The translations under genes and the position numbers were made by a program. Below are positions 147 through 26,957 of a stretch of 32,576 nucleotides of DNA, one piece after another; positions within the stretch are counted from its first letter, which is position 1; each line of letters begins with the position of its first letter. The notes under the pieces are model-generated. The model was not told where the DNA came from and did no database searches. It saw nothing but the letters and a program-made list of their open reading frames with translations. This DNA comes from a candidate division WOR-3 bacterium (GTDB taxonomy: Bacteria; SDB-A), in contig JAFGSQ010000061.1 of the NCBI GenBank assembly GCA_016934535.1, positions 1 to 32,576 of the forward strand, written 5' to 3'.

Positions 147-197
147 ATCGTTACACGAAGAGACGATAAATGAAAGAAAGAGATATCCACCACGAAG

Positions 198-220
198 GGT
201 GGGAAGCATCGCTTCCCACC
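198..220. repeat. perfect 10-bp hairpin between CACGAAG units
   Basis: Arms GGTGGGAAGC (198-207) and GCTTCCCACC (211-220) pair perfectly around the loop ATC. A CACGAAG unit ends directly before the left arm, and another starts two bases after the right arm. No T-run follows, so it does not look like a terminator. Confidence 0.85.
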
Positions 221-230
221 TGCACGAAGG

Positions 231-250
231 AAAAAATGTAAACATTTTTT
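231..250. repeat. AT-rich hairpin between CACGAAG units
   Basis: Arms AAAAAATGT (231-239) and ACATTTTTT (242-250) pair perfectly around two A bases. The left flank and left arm recur at 3549-3569, where the right arm is degraded. This copy is therefore one member of a small hairpin family. Confidence 0.75.
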
Positions 251-336
251 CTACACGAAGGTTAAGAAAAGAAAAGTATAAAAATCTTACCGTAAAAATG
301 ATACAGTGATATGGCGCAGTGCGGCGCAGTAGTTTG

Positions 337-3181: not shown

Positions 3182-3209
3182 AAAGGCGGGAATAAATCCG
3201 CCTTTTTTT
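3182..3209 (+). terminator. rho-independent terminator after the secreted BNR-like gene
   Basis: Arms AAAGGCGG (3182-3189) and CCGCCTTT (3198-3205) pair perfectly and are followed by T bases to 3209. Outer bases TGATAA and TTATCA partly extend the stem. Confidence 0.9.
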
Positions 3210-3272
3210 GTTATCAGTGGTTATGTTTTTTGCTAATAAAATTTAAGAAAGAGGAAATTTAAACCACGAAGC

Positions 3273-3295
3273 GGGATAAAGCCTTACTTTATCCC
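3273..3295. repeat. hairpin between CACGAAG units
   Basis: Arms GGGATAAAG (3273-3281) and CTTTATCCC (3287-3295) pair perfectly around a 5-base loop. It is bracketed by CACGAAG at 3265 and 3298. Confidence 0.8.
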
Positions 3296-3362
3296 TTCAC
3301 GAAGGTGAAGAAAAAAAACAAATAGATTATTCTTAATAAAATTTGTATTACTTCGTGTAGGG

Positions 3363-3389
3363 CACTTATTTGTCTTTAGCAAATAAGTG
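3363..3389. repeat. hairpin between CTTCGTG units
   Basis: Arms CACTTATTTG (3363-3372) and CAAATAAGTG (3380-3389) pair perfectly around loop TCTTTAG. It is homologous to the hairpin at 8405-8435, with the same inner stem and different but still paired outer bases. Confidence 0.85.
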
Positions 3390-3401
3390 AACTTTCGTGT
3401 A

Positions 3402-3429
3402 GAAGGGTATTGCTGCTGTAATACCCTTC
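3402..3429. repeat. hairpin between reversed repeat units
   Basis: Arms GAAGGGTATT (3402-3411) and AATACCCTTC (3420-3429) pair perfectly around an 8-base loop. The reversed separator CTTTCGTGTAG directly precedes it, and CTTCGTT follows. Confidence 0.8.
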
Positions 3430-3729
3430 GCTTCGTTGTAAAAATTATTTTTGGTTTTTCTTCGTAATGCATCAAATAAGTGAATTAGCAGTCGTGGTAG
3501 AAATTGTATTTAGTCTTTACAGAATAAAAAACAAGAAGAGATGTCAACCACGAAGGAAAAAATGTAAACAATCCATCTTCACGAAGCCGTCTATTTTTAC
3601 TCTGTCGGAAAGTAAGAATGGTTTATAAATTTACTTATGAATTGCTTGCTTTTTAATCGTCAAAACTTTGGTATGATTTTTTCCCTTTTCGTAATAAAAT
3701 TATGTTAACAGTTTAAGACAGGAGGAAAA

Positions 3730-4167
3730 ATGGCGTTACTCGATTTTGTAAAAGACGCGGGTAAAAACCTTATCAAAGACGCAAAACAGGCGACTTTGAA
3801 ACCCGAAGATTTGGCCAATGAATTGAAACTGCACGGATTTGAGATTCAGGATCTCAAGATCGGAGTCGACAAGGAAAAAGTCCTCGTTTCTGGAAAAGCA
3901 AAATCTCAGGAAGAAAGGGAAAAAGCCATTCTGTGTCTCGGAAACATAAAGGGCGTCGCTCAGATAGACGACAAGATCGCCATCGGTAAGGCCGAACCCG
4001 AATCGGGATATTATACTGTCAAATCCGGAGACACCCTTTCGAAAATCTCCAAGGAACAATACGGGGACCCGAACAAATACAACACAATCTTCGAGGCAAA
4101 CAAACCCATGCTGAAAGACGTTAACAAGATATACCCGGGTCAGGTTCTCAGGATACCCAAAAAGTAA
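3730..4167 (+). CDS. kbp: BON-LysM domain protein (Kbp/YgaU-like)
   Basis: A 145-residue protein with a short amphipathic start, a BON domain at about residues 25-85 and a LysM domain at about residues 95-145 (YTVKSGDTLSKIS ... IYPGQVLRIP). This domain order and length match E. coli Kbp (YgaU), a potassium-binding protein. There is no signal peptide, which also fits Kbp. The GGAGG ribosome site supports the start. A strong terminator follows directly, so it is probably its own transcript. Potassium binding is inferred from the family and is not shown by the sequence. Confidence 0.85.
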   Translation: MALLDFVKDAGKNLIKDAKQATLKPEDLANELKLHGFEIQDLKIGVDKEKVLVSGKAKSQEEREKAILCLGNIKGVAQIDDKIAIGKAEPESGYYTVKSGDTLSKISKEQYGDPNKYNTIFEANKPMLKDVNKIYPGQVLRIPKK

Positions 4168-4182
4168 TAGTTTTAACTTCAA

Positions 4183-4220
4183 GGTGTGTCATATATCCAT
4201 GATGACACACCATTTTTTTT
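4183..4220 (+). terminator. rho-independent terminator after the BON-LysM gene
   Basis: Arms GGTGTGTCAT (4183-4192) and ATGACACACC (4202-4211) form a perfect 10-bp stem, followed by eight T bases (4213-4220). Confidence 0.93.
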
Positions 4221-4247
4221 AATATTTGTAATGTTAAGGAGAAAAAC

Positions 4248-4745
4248 ATGGGATTGCTTGAATCGATTCTGAATTCCGATGCGTCACCTCTGAATAAAAT
4301 CGGAGATAAATTCGGGCTCAGTGAACAGCAGACCGCGGAAGTGGTAAAATTGTTTCTACCTGCTTTAACAGAAGGTATTAAAAAAAATGTGTCCCAAAAA
4401 GGGGGACTGGAAAGTTTGCTCGGTGCGCTCGCCAACGGGAATCACGATAAATATCTGAACGACGCGAATTCGCTGGATTCAGACAATGCAATTTCGGACG
4501 GCAACGGGATCCTCGGTCATGTGCTTAAAAACAAAGAAGTCAGTAAACAACTTGCAAAAAAGACCTCTGAAATTACGGGGGTAGATTCAAAAATACTTGA
4601 AAAAATGCTGCCTCTGGCGGCAGGACTGGCGATGGGAGCGCTGAAAAAACAGGGAGGAAAATCGGGTATTGTTTCCCAGCTTGTAGGAAGTGCACCGGCG
4701 CCATCAGCCCTTGATACAGTTATGTCTTTATTGAGCGGAGATTAA
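4248..4745 (+). CDS. DUF937 family protein
   Basis: A 165-residue protein rich in helix-forming residues. It begins GLLESILNS and has the FGLSEQQTAEVV and LPLAAGLAMGAL segments typical of DUF937 (YidB-like) proteins, whose function is unknown. The Gly/Ala-rich middle (about residues 118-135) could be a hydrophobic helix. There is no signal peptide. AAGGAG lies 7 bases before ATG. It begins just after the terminator of the upstream BON-LysM gene, so it should have separate transcription or depend on read-through. Another reading frame overlaps its 3' end and continues to 4890. Confidence 0.8.
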   Translation: MGLLESILNSDASPLNKIGDKFGLSEQQTAEVVKLFLPALTEGIKKNVSQKGGLESLLGALANGNHDKYLNDANSLDSDNAISDGNGILGHVLKNKEVSKQLAKKTSEITGVDSKILEKMLPLAAGLAMGALKKQGGKSGIVSQLVGSAPAPSALDTVMSLLSGD

Positions 4746-4890
4746 TAGTCAATCAGTCGAATATACGACTAAAGCGAACAGAGCGCTGATCGAAATCGCT
4801 TACAGAAGAACACCTTCTCTGAAAGACACACCTGATGAAATTCTCGATCTGGTCGCAGAGTATCCGAAGTCTACAAAAGCGATAAAGTAG
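4735..4890 (+). pseudogene. possible C-terminal gene remnant after the DUF937 gene
   Basis: An open frame, shifted +1 relative to the DUF937 gene, encodes about 51 residues ending DLVAEYPKSTKAIK and then TAG. It has protein-like composition (ALIEIAYRRTPSL, TPDEILDLV) but no ATG, GTG or TTG start; a CTG at 4783 is the best alternative. It may be the tail of a decayed gene or a frameshifted extension of the DUF937 gene. I do not recognise the family. Confidence 0.3.
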
Positions 4891-4911
4891 AATAATTAAG
4901 TTAATACGCTG

Positions 4912-6327
4912 TTATTTTTCAAGACCTGTAGGAGATCCGTACCATACGAAAATTGCTCCCTGCGTGTCGTCTTCGAGCGTAATTCCGGATGCTCCTGCAA
5001 CAATGTCGTCAAAACCATCGCCGTTTACATCGCCGGCACAGGAAACTGTAATGCCTAACAGCGCATTTTCGACATCGGATTCAATTAACGAATAAGAAGA
5101 ATTTGAAAGGCCTGTGGGCGAACCGTAGAAAAGATAAACTGCTCCTTCCATACTCTCGCCGTTTTTATAACCGTGGGCTCCGACAATGACGTCGCCGTAA
5201 CCGTCGCCGTTTATGTCTCCGGCGGCCGAAACATCGTATCCGAAAACGGAATTTTCAATTCCTGACGCAAAGGACCAGTTCAACAGGTCCGAAAGACCGG
5301 AGGAAGATCCGCTGAACGAAAACGCTGCGCCCTGCCAGGCCTCGCCGCCGCTGAACATCGGCGCCCCGATCAAAACTTCGTCGTATCCGTCGCCGTTGAC
5401 GTCGCCGGCAGAGGAGACCGAGGTTCCGTATTCAGTTCCTATCTGAACGGGCATGGCTGTCCAGTCGGGCTCCGAGGGGAGCCCTGATCCGGTGCCGTAA
5501 AAAACCAGCGCGGAGCCGAATTCCTCATCCGCGAAGTCGAAATAAGGCGCTCCAGCAATAATGTCGGAAAAACCGTCGCCGTTTACGTCCCCGGCACTGG
5601 AAACAGACCATCCGAGGTTTGACCATTCCTGATCGGATTCATAGGACCAGTCATAATTTTTGGAGGGGCCGGAAGAAGATCCGTAATAGACGAAAATCCC
5701 GCCCTCATATTCCTGATAGTTGGAGAAATTGTAAGAACCTGCTACGATGTCAGAATATCCGTCTTTATTGATGTCGCCTGCTGATGAAACCGAAGATCCG
5801 AAAAATGCTTCGAGTTGATTTATTTCGGATGTCCAATCAGGAGTTTCAGAGAGTCCTTCAGGCGATCCGTAATATATAAAAACCCTTCCCTTGTCATTTT
5901 GTTCGTCGCCGTATCCCGGTGATCCGATAATGACGTCCGAATAACCGTCGCCGTTGACATCGCCGGCTCCGGACACAGCCCATCCGAATTTAGCTTCCAC
6001 CAGGTCGGATTCCGCCAACCAGTCCGGAGAAGATGATAAGCCGTTTTCAGATCCGTAAAAAACTAGAGCGGCTCCTTCGAAAGGTTCCTCATCCATGAAG
6101 TACGGGACCCCCGCGATAATGTCGTCGTATCCGTCTCCGTTAACGTCGCCGGCAGAAGACACGGAAGTCACGGAAAGACCTAAATTCGCATAAATGTGTT
6201 TGGTGGAAAAAGTCCAATCGGAATCAAAAGAAGAAAATAGAACGAAATCTTTTGCAAAAAAAGTCAATGTCAACAGAACAATCAATTTTTTAAACGTTCC
6301 ATACGATATTAATCTTATTCCTTTCAC
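4912..6327 (-). CDS. secreted FG-GAP repeat (integrin-type beta-propeller) protein
   Basis: A 471-residue protein starting at GTG, with AGGGGA six bases upstream. The N-terminal hydrophobic stretch (about residues 13-30) is a signal peptide or anchor. Seven repeats follow, each with a core like SSAGDVNGDGYDDIIAG (DxNxDGxxD calcium loop) and a blade segment like GSSSGLS. Seven copies make one complete seven-bladed integrin alpha-type propeller with a calcium site in each blade. Unlike the other secreted proteins here, it has no C-terminal sorting tail and ends directly after the last blade. It has its own well-formed promoter. Partner or ligand is unknown. Confidence 0.9.
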   Translation of the reverse strand: MKGIRLISYGTFKKLIVLLTLTFFAKDFVLFSSFDSDWTFSTKHIYANLGLSVTSVSSAGDVNGDGYDDIIAGVPYFMDEEPFEGAALVFYGSENGLSSSPDWLAESDLVEAKFGWAVSGAGDVNGDGYSDVIIGSPGYGDEQNDKGRVFIYYGSPEGLSETPDWTSEINQLEAFFGSSVSSAGDINKDGYSDIVAGSYNFSNYQEYEGGIFVYYGSSSGPSKNYDWSYESDQEWSNLGWSVSSAGDVNGDGFSDIIAGAPYFDFADEEFGSALVFYGTGSGLPSEPDWTAMPVQIGTEYGTSVSSAGDVNGDGYDEVLIGAPMFSGGEAWQGAAFSFSGSSSGLSDLLNWSFASGIENSVFGYDVSAAGDINGDGYGDVIVGAHGYKNGESMEGAVYLFYGSPTGLSNSSYSLIESDVENALLGITVSCAGDVNGDGFDDIVAGASGITLEDDTQGAIFVWYGSPTGLEK

Positions 6328-6365
6328 AACAATTCCCCTTTAAAGAATTTTATAAAATCTCTTTT

Positions 6366-6393
6366 ATTATAAGAATTAAACACCATTTGTCAT
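6366..6393 (-). promoter_or_regulatory. promoter of the FG-GAP gene
   Basis: On the minus strand ATGACA (6388-6393) and TATAAT (6366-6371) are 16 bp apart, matching the spacing at the tRNA-Asp promoter. The start codon lies about 40 bases downstream. Confidence 0.6.
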
Positions 6394-6427
6394 ACAAAAT
6401 AAACAGAGTATTATCATGAAATATCTC

Positions 6428-6456
6428 TTGCATTGGAATAAATTACTGAATAATTT
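6428..6456 (+). promoter_or_regulatory. possible promoter of the GT-C-like membrane protein gene
   Basis: TTGCAT (6428-6433) and TAATTT (6451-6456) are 17 bp apart, about 25 bases before the start codon. Both boxes are imperfect. Confidence 0.3.
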
Positions 6457-6481
6457 AGGTTTAAACCGTTTGTAATAAAAA

Positions 6482-8083
6482 ATGAAAAAAATAAACACAC
6501 TTTTCCTTTGCATATTTGTTTATTCAGCTACAGTTATTATTCTCGTTGTCTCGGGCATTAGATCAAATTCCGGAACATTTGTTTACCCTCTCGATGACAC
6601 GTACATACACATGGCTTTAGCCCGGAATTTTGCCGGCAACGGAGTATGGGGTGTCAACGGAAATACACATTCTTTTTGTTCTTCGTCACCTCTTTGGACG
6701 TTGCTGTTATCATCTTTATATTTTGTTATTGGAAGCAGCATCTGGCTGCCACTGGTTCTCAATATTGCATTCGGAGTGTTGTTTATAATTTTTGCTTTTA
6801 ATTTTCTGCATAAAACCATGAATCTGACCGCCACTTTTTTTGCGGTGAATCTTTTGGTGTTTTCAATTTCACTGCCTGCTTTGACTTTAATCGCCATGGA
6901 ACATGTTTTACATATTTTGCTGACTGCGGTATTTTTGTATTTTGCGTCTGATCTTATCGGACGTGATAAATGCGGAAAATCGGGTGTCGTGAAAATTTCC
7001 TTTATCGCTTTTTTGCTTTCTTCTGTGAGATATGAGGGAATTTTCGCAGTTCTATCGGTTTGTTTGTTCCTGCTTTTTATCAAAAAATACAAAACAGCTG
7101 TGATTGTCGGGACTTCGGGTGTTATGCCGGCTTTTATACACGGTGCTTTTTCAACAGCCAAAGGATGGAAGTTTTTTCCAAGTTCAGTGCTTATAAAAAG
7201 AGCCTCTCTTTCGTTCAGTTCATTTGAAAGAATTTTGGATTCAATCGGAGGTTTGGCCATCAGGAAACTCTGGTCCTGTCATGCGCTTTTGTCTGTTTTG
7301 GCTCTGATAATTATAAGCTTTTATATAAAGAATTCAGAATCCGAGGAGAAAAGTTTAAGGAACAATTATCTTTTTCCCGTGGTTATTCTGGTTACTATTT
7401 TGCATCTGCAATTTGCCGCATTAGGCTGGATATATCGGTACGAAGCATATCTTATCGCTTTGGGACTTTTGATTTCATTGCCGATCATATCGAAGAAGCT
7501 GTTTATTCTTTTAAGGAACTGGACAAGACCTGTACAGCCGGTAAAATTGCTCGTTTTATGCGTATCAATGTTGATAATCGTTTTTCCTCTGGTTGACAGA
7601 GGCAGAAAAATGACCAGAGACGTTTATTATGCGATGAACGACAGATATCTGGAACACGTATTTCCAGCTCTTTTTTTGGAAAAATATTATGATGGTGCAG
7701 TGATTGTACTCAACGACATTGGAATAGCGTCATATTACTGTGACTGCAAAATCTTAGATGTTTCCGGTTTAGGCAGTATAGAACCGTTGAACTTCAGAAT
7801 GAAAACGGACGGATATACAAAAGATGATGTGTACGAATGGTCGAGTTCGGAAAATGCCCGGATCGCGATAATTCAAGTTAAATGGAAAGAAATCGCACAG
7901 AAGATTCCGGATCAGTGGGTGAAGGTCTGTCAATGGGAAATCCCGAGGAATACTGTATTCGGAGACACGGTCGTCGGATTTTTCGGTACGGATTCGGCTC
8001 AGGCATTAAAATTGAAGGAAAATATTATAGATTTCTCAAACTATATGCCAAGAAATATCCATATAACATGGGAACTAATGTAA
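6482..8083 (+). CDS. multi-pass membrane protein, GT-C glycosyltransferase-like
   Basis: A 533-residue protein with about ten hydrophobic segments and a soluble C-terminal part from about residue 385. After the first segment comes YPLDDTYIH (Asp38, Asp39). An acidic pair in the first outer loop of this kind is typical of GT-C glycosyltransferases, which transfer sugars from polyprenyl-phosphate donors on the outer membrane face. The NTHSFCSSSPLWTLLL stretch is also common in bacterial membrane proteins of this group. The C-terminal part (residues about 405-510, with a DVSGLGSIEPL stretch) would lie outside the cytoplasm. The ribosome site is weak. No other glycan gene is nearby, so the acceptor is unknown. 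The stop codon lies 2 bases from the 3' end of the convergent tRNA gene. Confidence 0.75.
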   Translation: MKKINTLFLCIFVYSATVIILVVSGIRSNSGTFVYPLDDTYIHMALARNFAGNGVWGVNGNTHSFCSSSPLWTLLLSSLYFVIGSSIWLPLVLNIAFGVLFIIFAFNFLHKTMNLTATFFAVNLLVFSISLPALTLIAMEHVLHILLTAVFLYFASDLIGRDKCGKSGVVKISFIAFLLSSVRYEGIFAVLSVCLFLLFIKKYKTAVIVGTSGVMPAFIHGAFSTAKGWKFFPSSVLIKRASLSFSSFERILDSIGGLAIRKLWSCHALLSVLALIIISFYIKNSESEEKSLRNNYLFPVVILVTILHLQFAALGWIYRYEAYLIALGLLISLPIISKKLFILLRNWTRPVQPVKLLVLCVSMLIIVFPLVDRGRKMTRDVYYAMNDRYLEHVFPALFLEKYYDGAVIVLNDIGIASYYCDCKILDVSGLGSIEPLNFRMKTDGYTKDDVYEWSSSENARIAIIQVKWKEIAQKIPDQWVKVCQWEIPRNTVFGDTVVGFFGTDSAQALKLKENIIDFSNYMPRNIHITWELM

Positions 8084-8085
8084 GA

Positions 8086-8163
8086 TGGCGGGGTAGACGG
8101 GACTCGAACCCGCGGCCTCTGGCTTGACAGGCCAGTGTGCTAACCAAACTGCACCACTACCCC
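8086..8163 (-). tRNA. tRNA-Asp (anticodon GUC), CCA encoded
   Basis: On the minus strand a 7-bp acceptor stem GGGGTAG/CTACCCC closes a full cloverleaf. The anticodon arm is CTGGC, loop CTGTCAA, GCCAG, giving anticodon GTC (Asp). The T arm is GCGGG TTCGAGT CCCGT. The discriminator base is G and the CCA end is in the DNA. A strong promoter lies directly upstream. Confidence 0.96.
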
Positions 8164-8176
8164 TCTGGAATAAGGA

Positions 8177-8204
8177 ATTATAAGTAATTGAAAATTAAAG
8201 TCAA
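8177..8204 (-). promoter_or_regulatory. sigma70-type promoter of tRNA-Asp
   Basis: On the minus strand TTGACT (8199-8204), a 16-bp spacer and a perfect TATAAT (8177-8182) lie 13 bases before the tRNA 5' end. This is the best promoter in the window and gives a reference for the organism's housekeeping consensus. Confidence 0.8.
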
Positions 8205-8367
8205 GGATTTTAGTAGAGAAGAGAACTGAAGAACTTCCACCACGGTTATAATGTAGTGTGAAAAAAGAATATAAGAAACTAACCGCAAAAAAGAAAGAAA
8301 AAAATTAACCACGAATTGACACGAATGAACGCTAATGGATGCGAAGGATAAGAAAGAAACTATTCTA

Positions 8368-8393
8368 TATAAAATTTGTTACCAAATTTTATA
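8368..8393. repeat. perfect 11-bp hairpin next to CTTCGTG
   Basis: Arms TATAAAATTTG (8368-8378) and CAAATTTTATA (8383-8393) pair perfectly around TTAC. A truncated relative (AATAAAATTTG, right arm missing) precedes the CTTCGTG unit at 3351. Confidence 0.85.
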
Positions 8394-8404
8394 ACTTCGT
8401 GTAG

Positions 8405-8435
8405 CTGGTTTATTTGCCTTATGCAAATAAGCCAG
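8405..8435. repeat. 12- to 13-bp hairpin between reversed repeat units
   Basis: Arms CTGGTTTATTTG (8405-8416) and CAAATAAGCCAG (8424-8435) pair with one G-T wobble. A further C-G pair (8417/8423) lies inside. It is homologous to the hairpin at 3363-3389. Confidence 0.85.
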
Positions 8436-8494
8436 CCTTCTTGGTAGAAATATTCTTAGTTCTTTGATTAAAATTTTTTAAAAAAAGATAGAAT

Positions 8495-24537: not shown

Positions 24538-26856
24538 CTACCTCACGAGAGTTATTTTACAGGTTTTTGAGAAATTACCCGTTCTGAGCAACAGGAAATA
24601 CTGCCCCGCGGGTTCTTCAGATGTATTCCAGAAAAACTCATGTTGACCCGCCGATATTTCTTTGTCAGCGAGAATTTTAATTTTTCTTCCGACCAGATCG
24701 TAGATTTCGAGAACTAAAGGCGAGTCTTTAAAGATTTCTAGCCGGATTTCGACTAAAGATGCCGAAACTGATGCGCTTAGCTGAAAAGAAACTGTTTTGA
24801 CATGGTCGGCGTTGATCTCTTCGACGTGTGTCGAGTAAAAAGGCGTCCCCTGAACCCACTCACAGTTAAAAATTCTGCAGTTTATCATGTTGGCGGTTCC
24901 GTCAAAAAGTGTGTCTCCGTTTGCTTCGTTCATGTTCCAGTAAGCGACAAGGCCGGATTCGGAACCGGAAAGCGGATGAGAAAGATTGCTTTGTATGGTC
25001 TGCTGAGTGAGGCAGGAATTCCAAATTCTCAGATCGTCTATCACTCCGTTGAAAGTGAAATTTAAACCGTTGTTGTTTCCCACGTAGAGGTTGTAGCTTG
25101 AGTGATCTTTAACGCTTCCTGACGGAGAGGTCAAATATGTGAGGGGCTGTTCGACGCCGTTGATGTATATCTTGAGTTCGCTCGAGGATGCCAGGTAAGT
25201 AAAAGCTATGTGCTGCCATGTGTCAAGTATGATCGAACTGTCCGGAGTGAATGAATAGCTGGTCGAGTTGTCCGAATGGACGATTTTTACCGCCAGGCAG
25301 TGGTCGTTGTAACTTGCTCCGCTCTTGACAAGATAGAAAGACAAGTTCACTTTGTCTATTATTCTGCCGAAACCGAGCATAGAGTTTTCCCCCCATCCAT
25401 GAGGATATATCCATGCCTCGATGGACAGAGAATCCGTCAGGTCAAGATTCGGAGAACTCTGGCAGACCGCTCTGCTTGATGCCCCGTCGAATCCGAGCGC
25501 ACTTTCACCGTTGAAAACTCTCACGCATTTTTGTTTGATTATCGTGTCGGTCAGCGAATCGTTCGACACTACGAGGGTAACTGTATAGTCTCCGGAATCG
25601 CCGTAAACGTGGACGGGATTCTGATCGTGCGAATCAAATGTTCCGTCGCTTTCGAAATCCCATGACCAGTCGTTTGCCGCAGGACTTGAAAATGACGAGT
25701 CGGTGAAATGAACCGTCAATGGCTCGTGACCTGTTTGAGGTTCGGCCATGAAATCGGCAAAAAGGAATGTAGTGACAGTTTCGTACCAGGCTACGTAAAA
25801 AGCATCCCTGATCGAGGACACTATGTCGAGATCACCGTCCTGGTCTACGTCCGAAACAAACACGTCGGATGAACCGTTGACATTCCGGGCGACTGTGTGA
25901 CCTGTAAAAATAATCTGTCCCGTGTTTTCCCAGTACGTTATTTTGTCCGCTATAAGATCTGCTCCGATGACATCGATGTCCCCGTCGCCGTCGAAATCCA
26001 CGGGAACTACCGTATGCGGAGAGTTGCCGGCGCTGTCGATCAGATGTTTGGTCAGATTCGTCGAGCCGTCATTTTCATACCATGCGACCTGGCCTATGAT
26101 ACAGGATGAAGCGACGAGATCGGAATCGCCGTCTCCGTCCATGTCGATCACCTCGACATGGTTTGGTCTGCCCCATGAAGTTTCGATCTGATGCTCGGTA
26201 AAATTCATAGATCCGTCGTTTTCGAACCATGAAAGGTCACCCGCAATGCTTGCGGTTCCGAAAAGGTCATTGTCTCCGTCGCCGTCGAGGTCGCCCGAGG
26301 CAATGCTGTTCGCGTTGTCCCACGGATATTTAACCGTGTGATCAGTGAAGTTCATTGAGCCGTCGTTCTCGAACCAGCCGAACCTGTCCGCGTTTTCGCA
26401 TGCTGCGGCGAGTATGTCGATGTCTCCGTCAATGTCCAGATCGACAGCTCGAACATAAGTGACGCCTGACCAATTCGACACTACGTTGGGTGTAAAATTC
26501 TGACTGCCGTCGTTTTCATACCAGAGAACCAGAGCAGCCTCGTCTACTGCGCAGACAATGTCGCTGTCTCCGTCGCAGTCGAGGTCGCAGATCTCGAGTT
26601 TCATTACTCCCGTCGCCGAAGACGATATGTTGTGTCTTGTGAAATACTGATTGCCGCCGTTTTCGTACCAGTCCAGGCTGTTGCCGATTCTGTCAGTACC
26701 CGCTATATCTATGTCTCCGTCTGAGTCGATGTCGCACGCCCAGACGAACCAGGGCCAGCCCAATCCGCTTTGAATAATGTGTTCCGCGTAATAATTGAGA
26801 CAGCAGCATTCAACGAAAACAAACAATAAAACCGCGAATGAAAAGCACCTCTTCAT
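24538..26856 (-). CDS. secreted VCBS propeller-PKD-LamG protein with type IX-like sorting tail
   Basis: 772 residues from ATG 26856, chosen because GGGAGG lies six bases upstream and a signal peptide follows (KRCFSFAVLLFVFVECCC). Order: seven VCBS/FG-GAP-type repeats (about residues 30-355), each with a DxDxDGDxD calcium loop and a WYENDGS blade motif; a PKD domain (about 360-445, WSWDFESDGTFDS, VHVYGDSGDYTVTL); a concanavalin/LamG domain (about 445-670, SIEAWIYPHGWG, WQHIAFTY, GVIDDLRIW, LVAYWNMNE); and a C-terminal sorting domain (LEIYDLVGRKIKIL, then GQYFLLLRTGNF). It should be a large surface-exposed carbohydrate- or protein-binding adhesin-like protein. No catalytic site is seen. Confidence 0.88.
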   Translation of the reverse strand: MKRCFSFAVLLFVFVECCCLNYYAEHIIQSGLGWPWFVWACDIDSDGDIDIAGTDRIGNSLDWYENGGNQYFTRHNISSSATGVMKLEICDLDCDGDSDIVCAVDEAALVLWYENDGSQNFTPNVVSNWSGVTYVRAVDLDIDGDIDILAAACENADRFGWFENDGSMNFTDHTVKYPWDNANSIASGDLDGDGDNDLFGTASIAGDLSWFENDGSMNFTEHQIETSWGRPNHVEVIDMDGDGDSDLVASSCIIGQVAWYENDGSTNLTKHLIDSAGNSPHTVVPVDFDGDGDIDVIGADLIADKITYWENTGQIIFTGHTVARNVNGSSDVFVSDVDQDGDLDIVSSIRDAFYVAWYETVTTFLFADFMAEPQTGHEPLTVHFTDSSFSSPAANDWSWDFESDGTFDSHDQNPVHVYGDSGDYTVTLVVSNDSLTDTIIKQKCVRVFNGESALGFDGASSRAVCQSSPNLDLTDSLSIEAWIYPHGWGENSMLGFGRIIDKVNLSFYLVKSGASYNDHCLAVKIVHSDNSTSYSFTPDSSIILDTWQHIAFTYLASSSELKIYINGVEQPLTYLTSPSGSVKDHSSYNLYVGNNNGLNFTFNGVIDDLRIWNSCLTQQTIQSNLSHPLSGSESGLVAYWNMNEANGDTLFDGTANMINCRIFNCEWVQGTPFYSTHVEEINADHVKTVSFQLSASVSASLVEIRLEIFKDSPLVLEIYDLVGRKIKILADKEISAGQHEFFWNTSEEPAGQYFLLLRTGNFSKTCKITLVR

Positions 26857-26881
26857 CTTCCACCTCCCGTTTAGGTAGTCA

Positions 26882-26910
26882 ATTTTCAGCCTCAAATGAC
26901 AAAACGTCAA
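26882..26910 (-). promoter_or_regulatory. possible promoter of the VCBS-PKD-LamG gene
   Basis: On the minus strand TTGACG (26905-26910), a 17-bp spacer and GAAAAT (26882-26887) lie 26 bases before the start codon. A small palindrome (TGAC, 5 bases, GTCA) overlaps the -35 region. Confidence 0.4.
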
Positions 26911-26923
26911 GGAAAAAGCAGAT

Positions 26924-26957
26924 AAAAAAAAGGAGGGCAACAAGCCCTCCTTTTTTT
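26924..26957 (-). terminator. bidirectional rho-independent terminator between the two secreted genes
   Basis: Arms GGAGGGC (26932-26938) and GCCCTCC (26944-26950) with loop AACAA are flanked by eight A bases on the left and seven T bases on the right, so the signal works on both strands. It terminates the minus-strand gene that ends at 26980. Confidence 0.93.

Follow-up and report, generated by a model that had tools for sequence, protein, structure and literature searches.

The bacterial interspersed mosaic elements (BIMEs) of Escherichia coli are mosaics of palindromes that lie between genes. Among the described repeats, the GTAG-tagged repetitive extragenic palindromes (REPs) are 20-40 bp long with GTAG at one end. 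They cluster or form inverted dimers, chiefly where the neighbouring genes are tandem or convergent, and their subfamilies are set apart by complementary stem residues (Di Nocera et al. 2013, PMC3733652). Members of this superfamily usually exceed 100 copies per genome, and the tag is kept in >90% of members in most families. The REPINs (REP doublets forming hairpins) of Pseudomonas fluorescens are inverted REP pairs (PMC3116915). Here we describe intergenic hairpin arrays that resemble all of these, found in a stretch of 32,576 nucleotides from a candidate division WOR-3 bacterium (assembly GCA_016934535.1, contig JAFGSQ010000061.1; hereafter, the window). The initial annotation had compared two hairpins of this stretch, at 3363-3389 and 8405-8435, and had missed that they are two modules among many in REP/BIME-like mosaics. 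We favour, while giving it no better than an even chance, a reading in which both hairpins belong to a REP/BIME-like mosaic of intergenic DNA specific to this genus, whose linker is constant and whose stems vary while the hairpin form is kept.

The repeating unit is CTTCGTG-(T/A/C)AG-[hairpin]-CTTCGTG, with many different hairpins between the linkers. In the window's genome (G000; 2,234,418 bases in 76 contigs), a search for pairs of TTCGTG copies separated by 24-54 bases yielded 51 rows, 19 forward and 32 reverse, against 5 and 3 in the control. The same units were found in two congeners, with 25 rows in G001 and 23 in G002, while the 9 rows of a genome of the same family, G003, are linear repeats without hairpins, as judged by eye. 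Such linear TTCGTG/CACGAA repeats also occur in the window, at 63-119 and 8306-8345. Covariance models of the short and long hairpins (R1 and R2) match three of 60 genomes, all of this genus. The array layout is ACCACGAAG-hairpin-CACGAAG-...-TATAAAATTTG..CAAATTTTATA-...-CTTCGTG-hairpin-CTTCGTGGT; that is, the two halves are inverted and face away from a central AT-rich hairpin, the orientation found in BIMEs and REPINs. Window positions 3265-3437 keep this inverted layout with a decayed centre, and 8368-8447 comprise the centre and one half. Spacers between linkers are mostly 20-36 bases long, within the 20-40 bp of short palindromic repeats. A clustered regularly interspaced short palindromic repeat (CRISPR) array is ruled out, the spacers being palindromic and the repeats only 7-10 bp. 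Copies found per genome number in the tens, and the true number may be higher as many arrays lie near contig ends (in G000, on contigs C6, C23, C32, C44, C58, C61, C73 and C76); this position points to assembly breaks at the repeats and to missing copies.

Spacers were picked on their linkers alone, with one mismatch allowed in one linker, from 27 loci of the three genomes. This gave 90 linker pairs, of which 73 enclose a strong strand-neutral hairpin. Among spacers tagged nAG, 61 of 67 are strong, near-perfect palindromes, compared with 45 of 3350 shuffled spacers (1.3%); the six non-palindromic exceptions include a chimeric unit at 3549-3586, entered twice owing to a second linker. Scoring of the rows of the TTCGTG search covered 50 of the 51 rows of G000 and 24 of the 25 of G001 (one overlapping longer row was dropped in each), all 23 of G002 and none of the 9 of G003. 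The 65 distinct spacers represent 63 hairpins, since two are an already listed hairpin read on to a second linker. After CTTCGTG they carry TAG (28), AAG (14), CAG (12) or another tag (11), so that GTAG is formed in only 28 of 65, below the >90% usual in the GTAG superfamily.

The stems covary. Structure counts were compared with shuffles and slides. In the short ATTG family (alignment A4, 17 spacers), 91.2% of cells are paired against 74.5% in shuffles and the covariation score is 0.503 against 0.200, although the family is not unusual in double-change pairs (80 of 500 shuffles as high) or in further pair types (470 of 500). In the long TTATTTG family (A5, 13 spacers), 93.4% of cells are paired against 80.0%, and eight pairs show a double change, a value reached by none of 500 shuffles. 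A5 omits two linker-bounded copies with other indels (the first copy on contig C44 and one on C48 of G002) as well as a C25 copy that has no left linker; a narrower alignment, A2, is restricted to the 7 long-family copies that are equally long. A third family (A6, 6 spacers) is weaker, with 7 of 500 shuffles as high. The initial annotation had proposed collecting all copies and testing for covariation, and this was done with a self-written, tree-aware null after the R-scape idea (E < 0.05), a rough test as the trees come from very short sequences. Under it, structure pairs covary at 5 of 10 positions in the short family, 3 of 14 in the long (one only just) and 1 of 15 in the third (weakly); no off-structure column pair is significant (0 of 221, 0 of 514 and 0 of 546, respectively). 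In the same order, the three families need a minimum of 8, 12 and 3 double changes. Covariation is thus supported, and with it the earlier proposal that the paired changes are real and beyond chance, now across three genomes; either of the two causes proposed there, selection on the folded form or symmetry-restoring copying, may underlie them. A copy whose arms do not match, the kind that had been named as contrary evidence, does exist at 3549-3586; statistically supported covariation was found nonetheless.

Re-reading the two window hairpins confirmed their coordinates exactly, as well as their bracketing by linkers 42 bp apart: TTCGTG at 3352 and 3394 for the first, and CTTCGTG at 8395 with CTTCTTG at 8437, one mismatch away, for the second. 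The first reads CACTTATTTG-TCTTTAG-CAAATAAGTG and the second CTGGTTTATTTG-CCTTATG-CAAATAAGCCAG, where the additional pair G8404-C8436 extends the stem to 14 pairs. Single-stranded DNA folding compared with shuffles gave z = -4.35 and z = -6.82, respectively, and the core TTATTTG-N7-CAAATAA occurs at six places in the 2.23-Mb G000, while its reversed control occurs at none. Two or three outer pairs had been described as changed on both sides; A-T versus G-C and C-G versus G-C are indeed double changes, but C-G versus T-G is one-sided, so the two window copies alone show two and not three. In G001, a hairpin closely related to the second one has C-G where the window has T-G, which suggests that this T-G pair is a decayed C-G. 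The modules of the window are as follows.

3363 to 3389, forward strand: long-family hairpin 1, with a 10-bp stem and a 7-nt loop (from sequence and folding).
8404 to 8436, forward strand: long-family hairpin 2, with 14 pairs including one T-G (from sequence and folding).
3351 to 3360, forward strand: linker CTTCGTGTAG, left of hairpin 1.
3392 to 3402, forward strand: linker CTTTCGTGTAG, right of hairpin 1, 42 bp from the left linker.
3402 to 3429, forward strand: the hairpin that comes next in the array, GAAGGGTATTGC..GTAATACCCTTC, with the degenerate linker CTTCGTT after it, at 3431.
3265 to 3304, reverse strand: oppositely oriented unit made of a linker, the hairpin GGGATAAAG..CTTTATCCC (3273-3295) and a linker.
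3334 to 3350, no strand assigned: what is left of the central TATAAAATTTG/CAAATTTTATA hairpin that separates the inverted halves, read from the sequence; other arrays hold intact copies.
3549 to 3586, reverse strand: chimeric unit with left arm GATGGATTG and right arm CATTTTTTC, the arms unpaired (an exception).
8368 to 8393, no strand assigned: central hairpin TATAAAATTTG..CAAATTTTATA, adjoining hairpin 2.
8395 to 8404, forward strand: linker CTTCGTGTAG, left of hairpin 2.
8437 to 8447, forward strand: linker CTTCTTGGTAG, right of hairpin 2, with one mismatch.
191 to 260, reverse strand: two head-to-tail units, GGTGGGAAGC..GCTTCCCACC (198-220) and GAAAAAATG..CATTTTTTC (230-251).
8306 to 8345, no strand assigned: linear, non-hairpin CACGAA repeats in the intergenic region of hairpin 2, with more at 63-119.

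In the mosaic reading, the short linker, CTTCGTG with its TAG, AAG or CAG, does not vary, and the palindromes that it separates fall into several stem families, in which the two arms have changed together. The units would spread and be remodelled as DNA, and a process acting on DNA would uphold the palindrome. In what seems to us the likeliest process, the hairpins would form in single-stranded DNA during replication, where a mutated arm would be recopied from the opposite arm by template switching, which creates and mends hairpin stems (PMC8794818), or would be lost since only hairpin-forming units keep being copied. Selection on the hairpin DNA and arm copying would each fit these data. Several observations weigh against it. 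The arms are not strictly in step and sometimes drift apart, as nearest neighbours differ on one side in 47 cases and on both sides in 18. The four-base loops occur in one orientation only; thus, template switching would have to preserve the loop, no loop-inverting switch being seen. The arms of the chimera at 3549-3586 are unpaired, and no enzyme is pinned to the process. Moreover, the family alignments lean to G-T, as mild selection on RNA or on single strands would also give, and the comparison of G-T with A-C rests on only 17 informative cells.

Close to this account stands the possibility that form is under no selection at all, and that the palindromes are made and kept symmetric purely by template switching from arm to arm (quasipalindrome correction). 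Of the 18 double changes between nearest neighbours, 8 could pass through a G-U intermediate and the 10 of transversion type could not; changes of this second kind are thus common, which counts for this possibility as it does for the mosaic reading. The chimera at 3549-3586 shows arms of two hairpin types joined through the loop sequence that these have in common, TGTTTACA, and the mechanism itself is a known one (PMC8794818). Template switching alone, however, leaves the oriented loops and the constant linkers unexplained and gives no reason for palindromes to sit between linkers. We regard it as possible, though clearly less probable than the mosaic reading.

It is somewhat less likely still that the hairpins act in RNA, as stabilisers of 3' ends or weak terminators, with the covariation reflecting selection on the transcript. 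Arrays do favour gene 3' ends, and the hairpins at 3402-3429 and 8404-8436 meet a loose terminator consensus, which they do because the linker is T-rich. Were RNA folding the constraint, a clear excess of G-T pairs would be expected. The 673 pair cells of the 65 distinct spacers comprise 647 Watson-Crick pairs, 10 G-T, 7 A-C and 9 others, the G-T and A-C counts not differing significantly, and the lean of the family alignments to G-T, which would suit a transcript, amounts to 15:7 over A-C (p 0.13), or 11:6 without the loop-closing pair (p 0.33), neither departing from equality. Selection at the RNA level is therefore not favoured, on a small and under-powered sample. In addition, a conventional terminator-like hairpin at 3182-3205 already lies between the upstream gene and the array at 3265-3600, and units within one array face both ways. 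As for known RNAs, Rfam families are ruled out, only tRNA scoring above gathering in the window.

Equally doubtful is the view that a REP-associated Y1 (HUH) transposase moves these repeats as genuine REPs, and that the hairpin is selected because the enzyme recognises it on single-stranded DNA. The E. coli enzyme TnpAREP requires GTAG and cleaves at CT (PMC8266576). In the arrays, TAG after CTTCGTG in 28 of the 65 spacers places a GTAG tag at the hairpin foot, each linker holds a CT dinucleotide, and each of the three genomes encodes one PF01797 protein, from a single Y1-transposase-like gene per genome (L036, L099 and L100). The compensatory changes reported for REPINs (PMC3116915) and the alternative complementary stem residues of GTAG repeats (PMC3733652) speak for it as well. 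The genes themselves do not fit. At three of four Y1 loci, 3.3 kb hold no TTCGTG or CACGAA, and the fourth, L100, has a single CACGAAG; at none of the four is the Y1 gene flanked by repeats, as it would be in a REPtron. The HUH motif is apparently intact in the G000 protein but degenerate in those of G001 and G002, which have lost motif residues, and G002 lacks the expected tyrosine (alignment and motif positions read by eye). A match to Bac_DnaA_C, below threshold, likens the G000 protein to a Y1 subgroup whose C-terminal domain is DnaA-like and with which the published Y1 survey reports no REPs (PMC6006769). Moreover, G003 carries a Y1 protein yet has no hairpin arrays. A search of other genomes' contigs with the Y1 protein found no relative. 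A dedicated REP-associated tyrosine transposase (RAYT) system or REPtron in its usual form is thus unsupported, because no Y1 gene is framed by arrays, the motif appears degenerate in G001 and G002, and the G000 protein resembles the subgroup with which no REPs are reported.

We could also speculate that mobility or recombination resides in the linker CTTCGTGnAG itself, with some activity on single-stranded DNA repeatedly making new perfect palindromes between linkers. On this reading, which we consider improbable, the arrays would generate palindromes instead of conserving a REP, their constant part being 7-10 bp and the palindrome a variable cargo. Chance palindromes or an alignment artefact, which the two copies of the initial annotation might have allowed, can be dismissed, being refuted by the palindromy of linker-chosen spacers against their shuffles and opposed by the reversed-core control, the family shuffles, the tree-aware covariation and the folding z-scores alike.

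On rough open reading frame (ORF) calls, 20 of the 32 arrays in the examined loci have a gene on both sides, counted as 9 convergent, 9 tandem and 2 divergent pairs, although the LysM gene at 3730 was read on the wrong strand, so that two of the rows scored as convergent, both in the window, should count as tandem. Thus, 18 of 20 lie between convergent or tandem genes, as extragenic GTAG repeats do. A gene 3' end points towards 10 of the 12 arrays at contig edges, and none of the 32 was flagged inside a long ORF. Contig C86 of G002 holds homologues of both window gene neighbourhoods, and the arrays are absent from both syntenic sites: no array precedes the LysM gene, and the interval from tRNA-Asp to the radical-SAM gene keeps only a lone CTTCGTGGTT end. 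The second site in G001 (tRNA-Asp/radical-SAM) has no linker and no tRNA. Arrays thus come or go between congeners, whether by insertion or by loss. Elsewhere in the window, the DNA at 4912-6327 encodes an FG-GAP repeat protein and contains internal repeats of 186 bp, and the homologous stretch of G002 aligns to it in several registers; direct repeats 144-150 bp apart lie at 25966-26735 within the ORF 24538-26943.

Covariation is usually read as a strong sign of functional RNA. In this genus, numerous palindromes that covary are found within mosaics of intergenic DNA, and they show near-strict Watson-Crick pairing and no clear G-U excess. Together with strain-level genomes, such arrays would offer a natural test of whether paired changes arise by selection on the fold or by template-switch copying of arms. 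In the part of the literature searched, no earlier description of the linker sequence or of the repeat was found. A scan of other genomes' contigs with the linker pattern returned 79 stretches, mostly coding or plain tandem repeats; palindromic spacers occurred only in the WOR-3 metagenome-assembled genome (MAG), a Parabacteroides MAG and a few others. The Parabacteroides MAG (CALVFH01; loci L108, L137, L146 and L175) has the linker CTTCGTGTAG and a 42-bp tandem period, and its stems TTTTTCC/GGAAAAA, TTTTCGC/GCGAAAA and TTTTTAC/GTAAAAA differ by complementary changes. Its arrays are plain tandem and not inverted, and as they were found by a pattern that fixes the linker, a common origin is not implied. 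Similar tandem palindromes occur in a Cytophagaceae (L169) and a Planctomycetota (L167) locus.

Compared with GTAG REPs, the arrays described here have a constant linker with widely different stems within one array, a tag that may be TAG, AAG or CAG, tens of copies found per genome and no repeat-flanked Y1 gene. In REPINs the palindrome is conserved and the spacer varies (PMC3116915), whereas in these arrays the palindrome itself varies. With the BIMEs of E. coli, as described in PMC3733652, they have in common the intergenic mosaic of palindromes; unlike BIMEs, they are built on a central TATAAAATTTG hairpin and CTTCGTG linkers. The individual ingredients have precedents in print: GTAG repeats carry alternative stem residues that are complementary (PMC3733652), compensatory changes are reported for REPINs (PMC3116915), and stems can be made or mended by template switching (PMC8794818).

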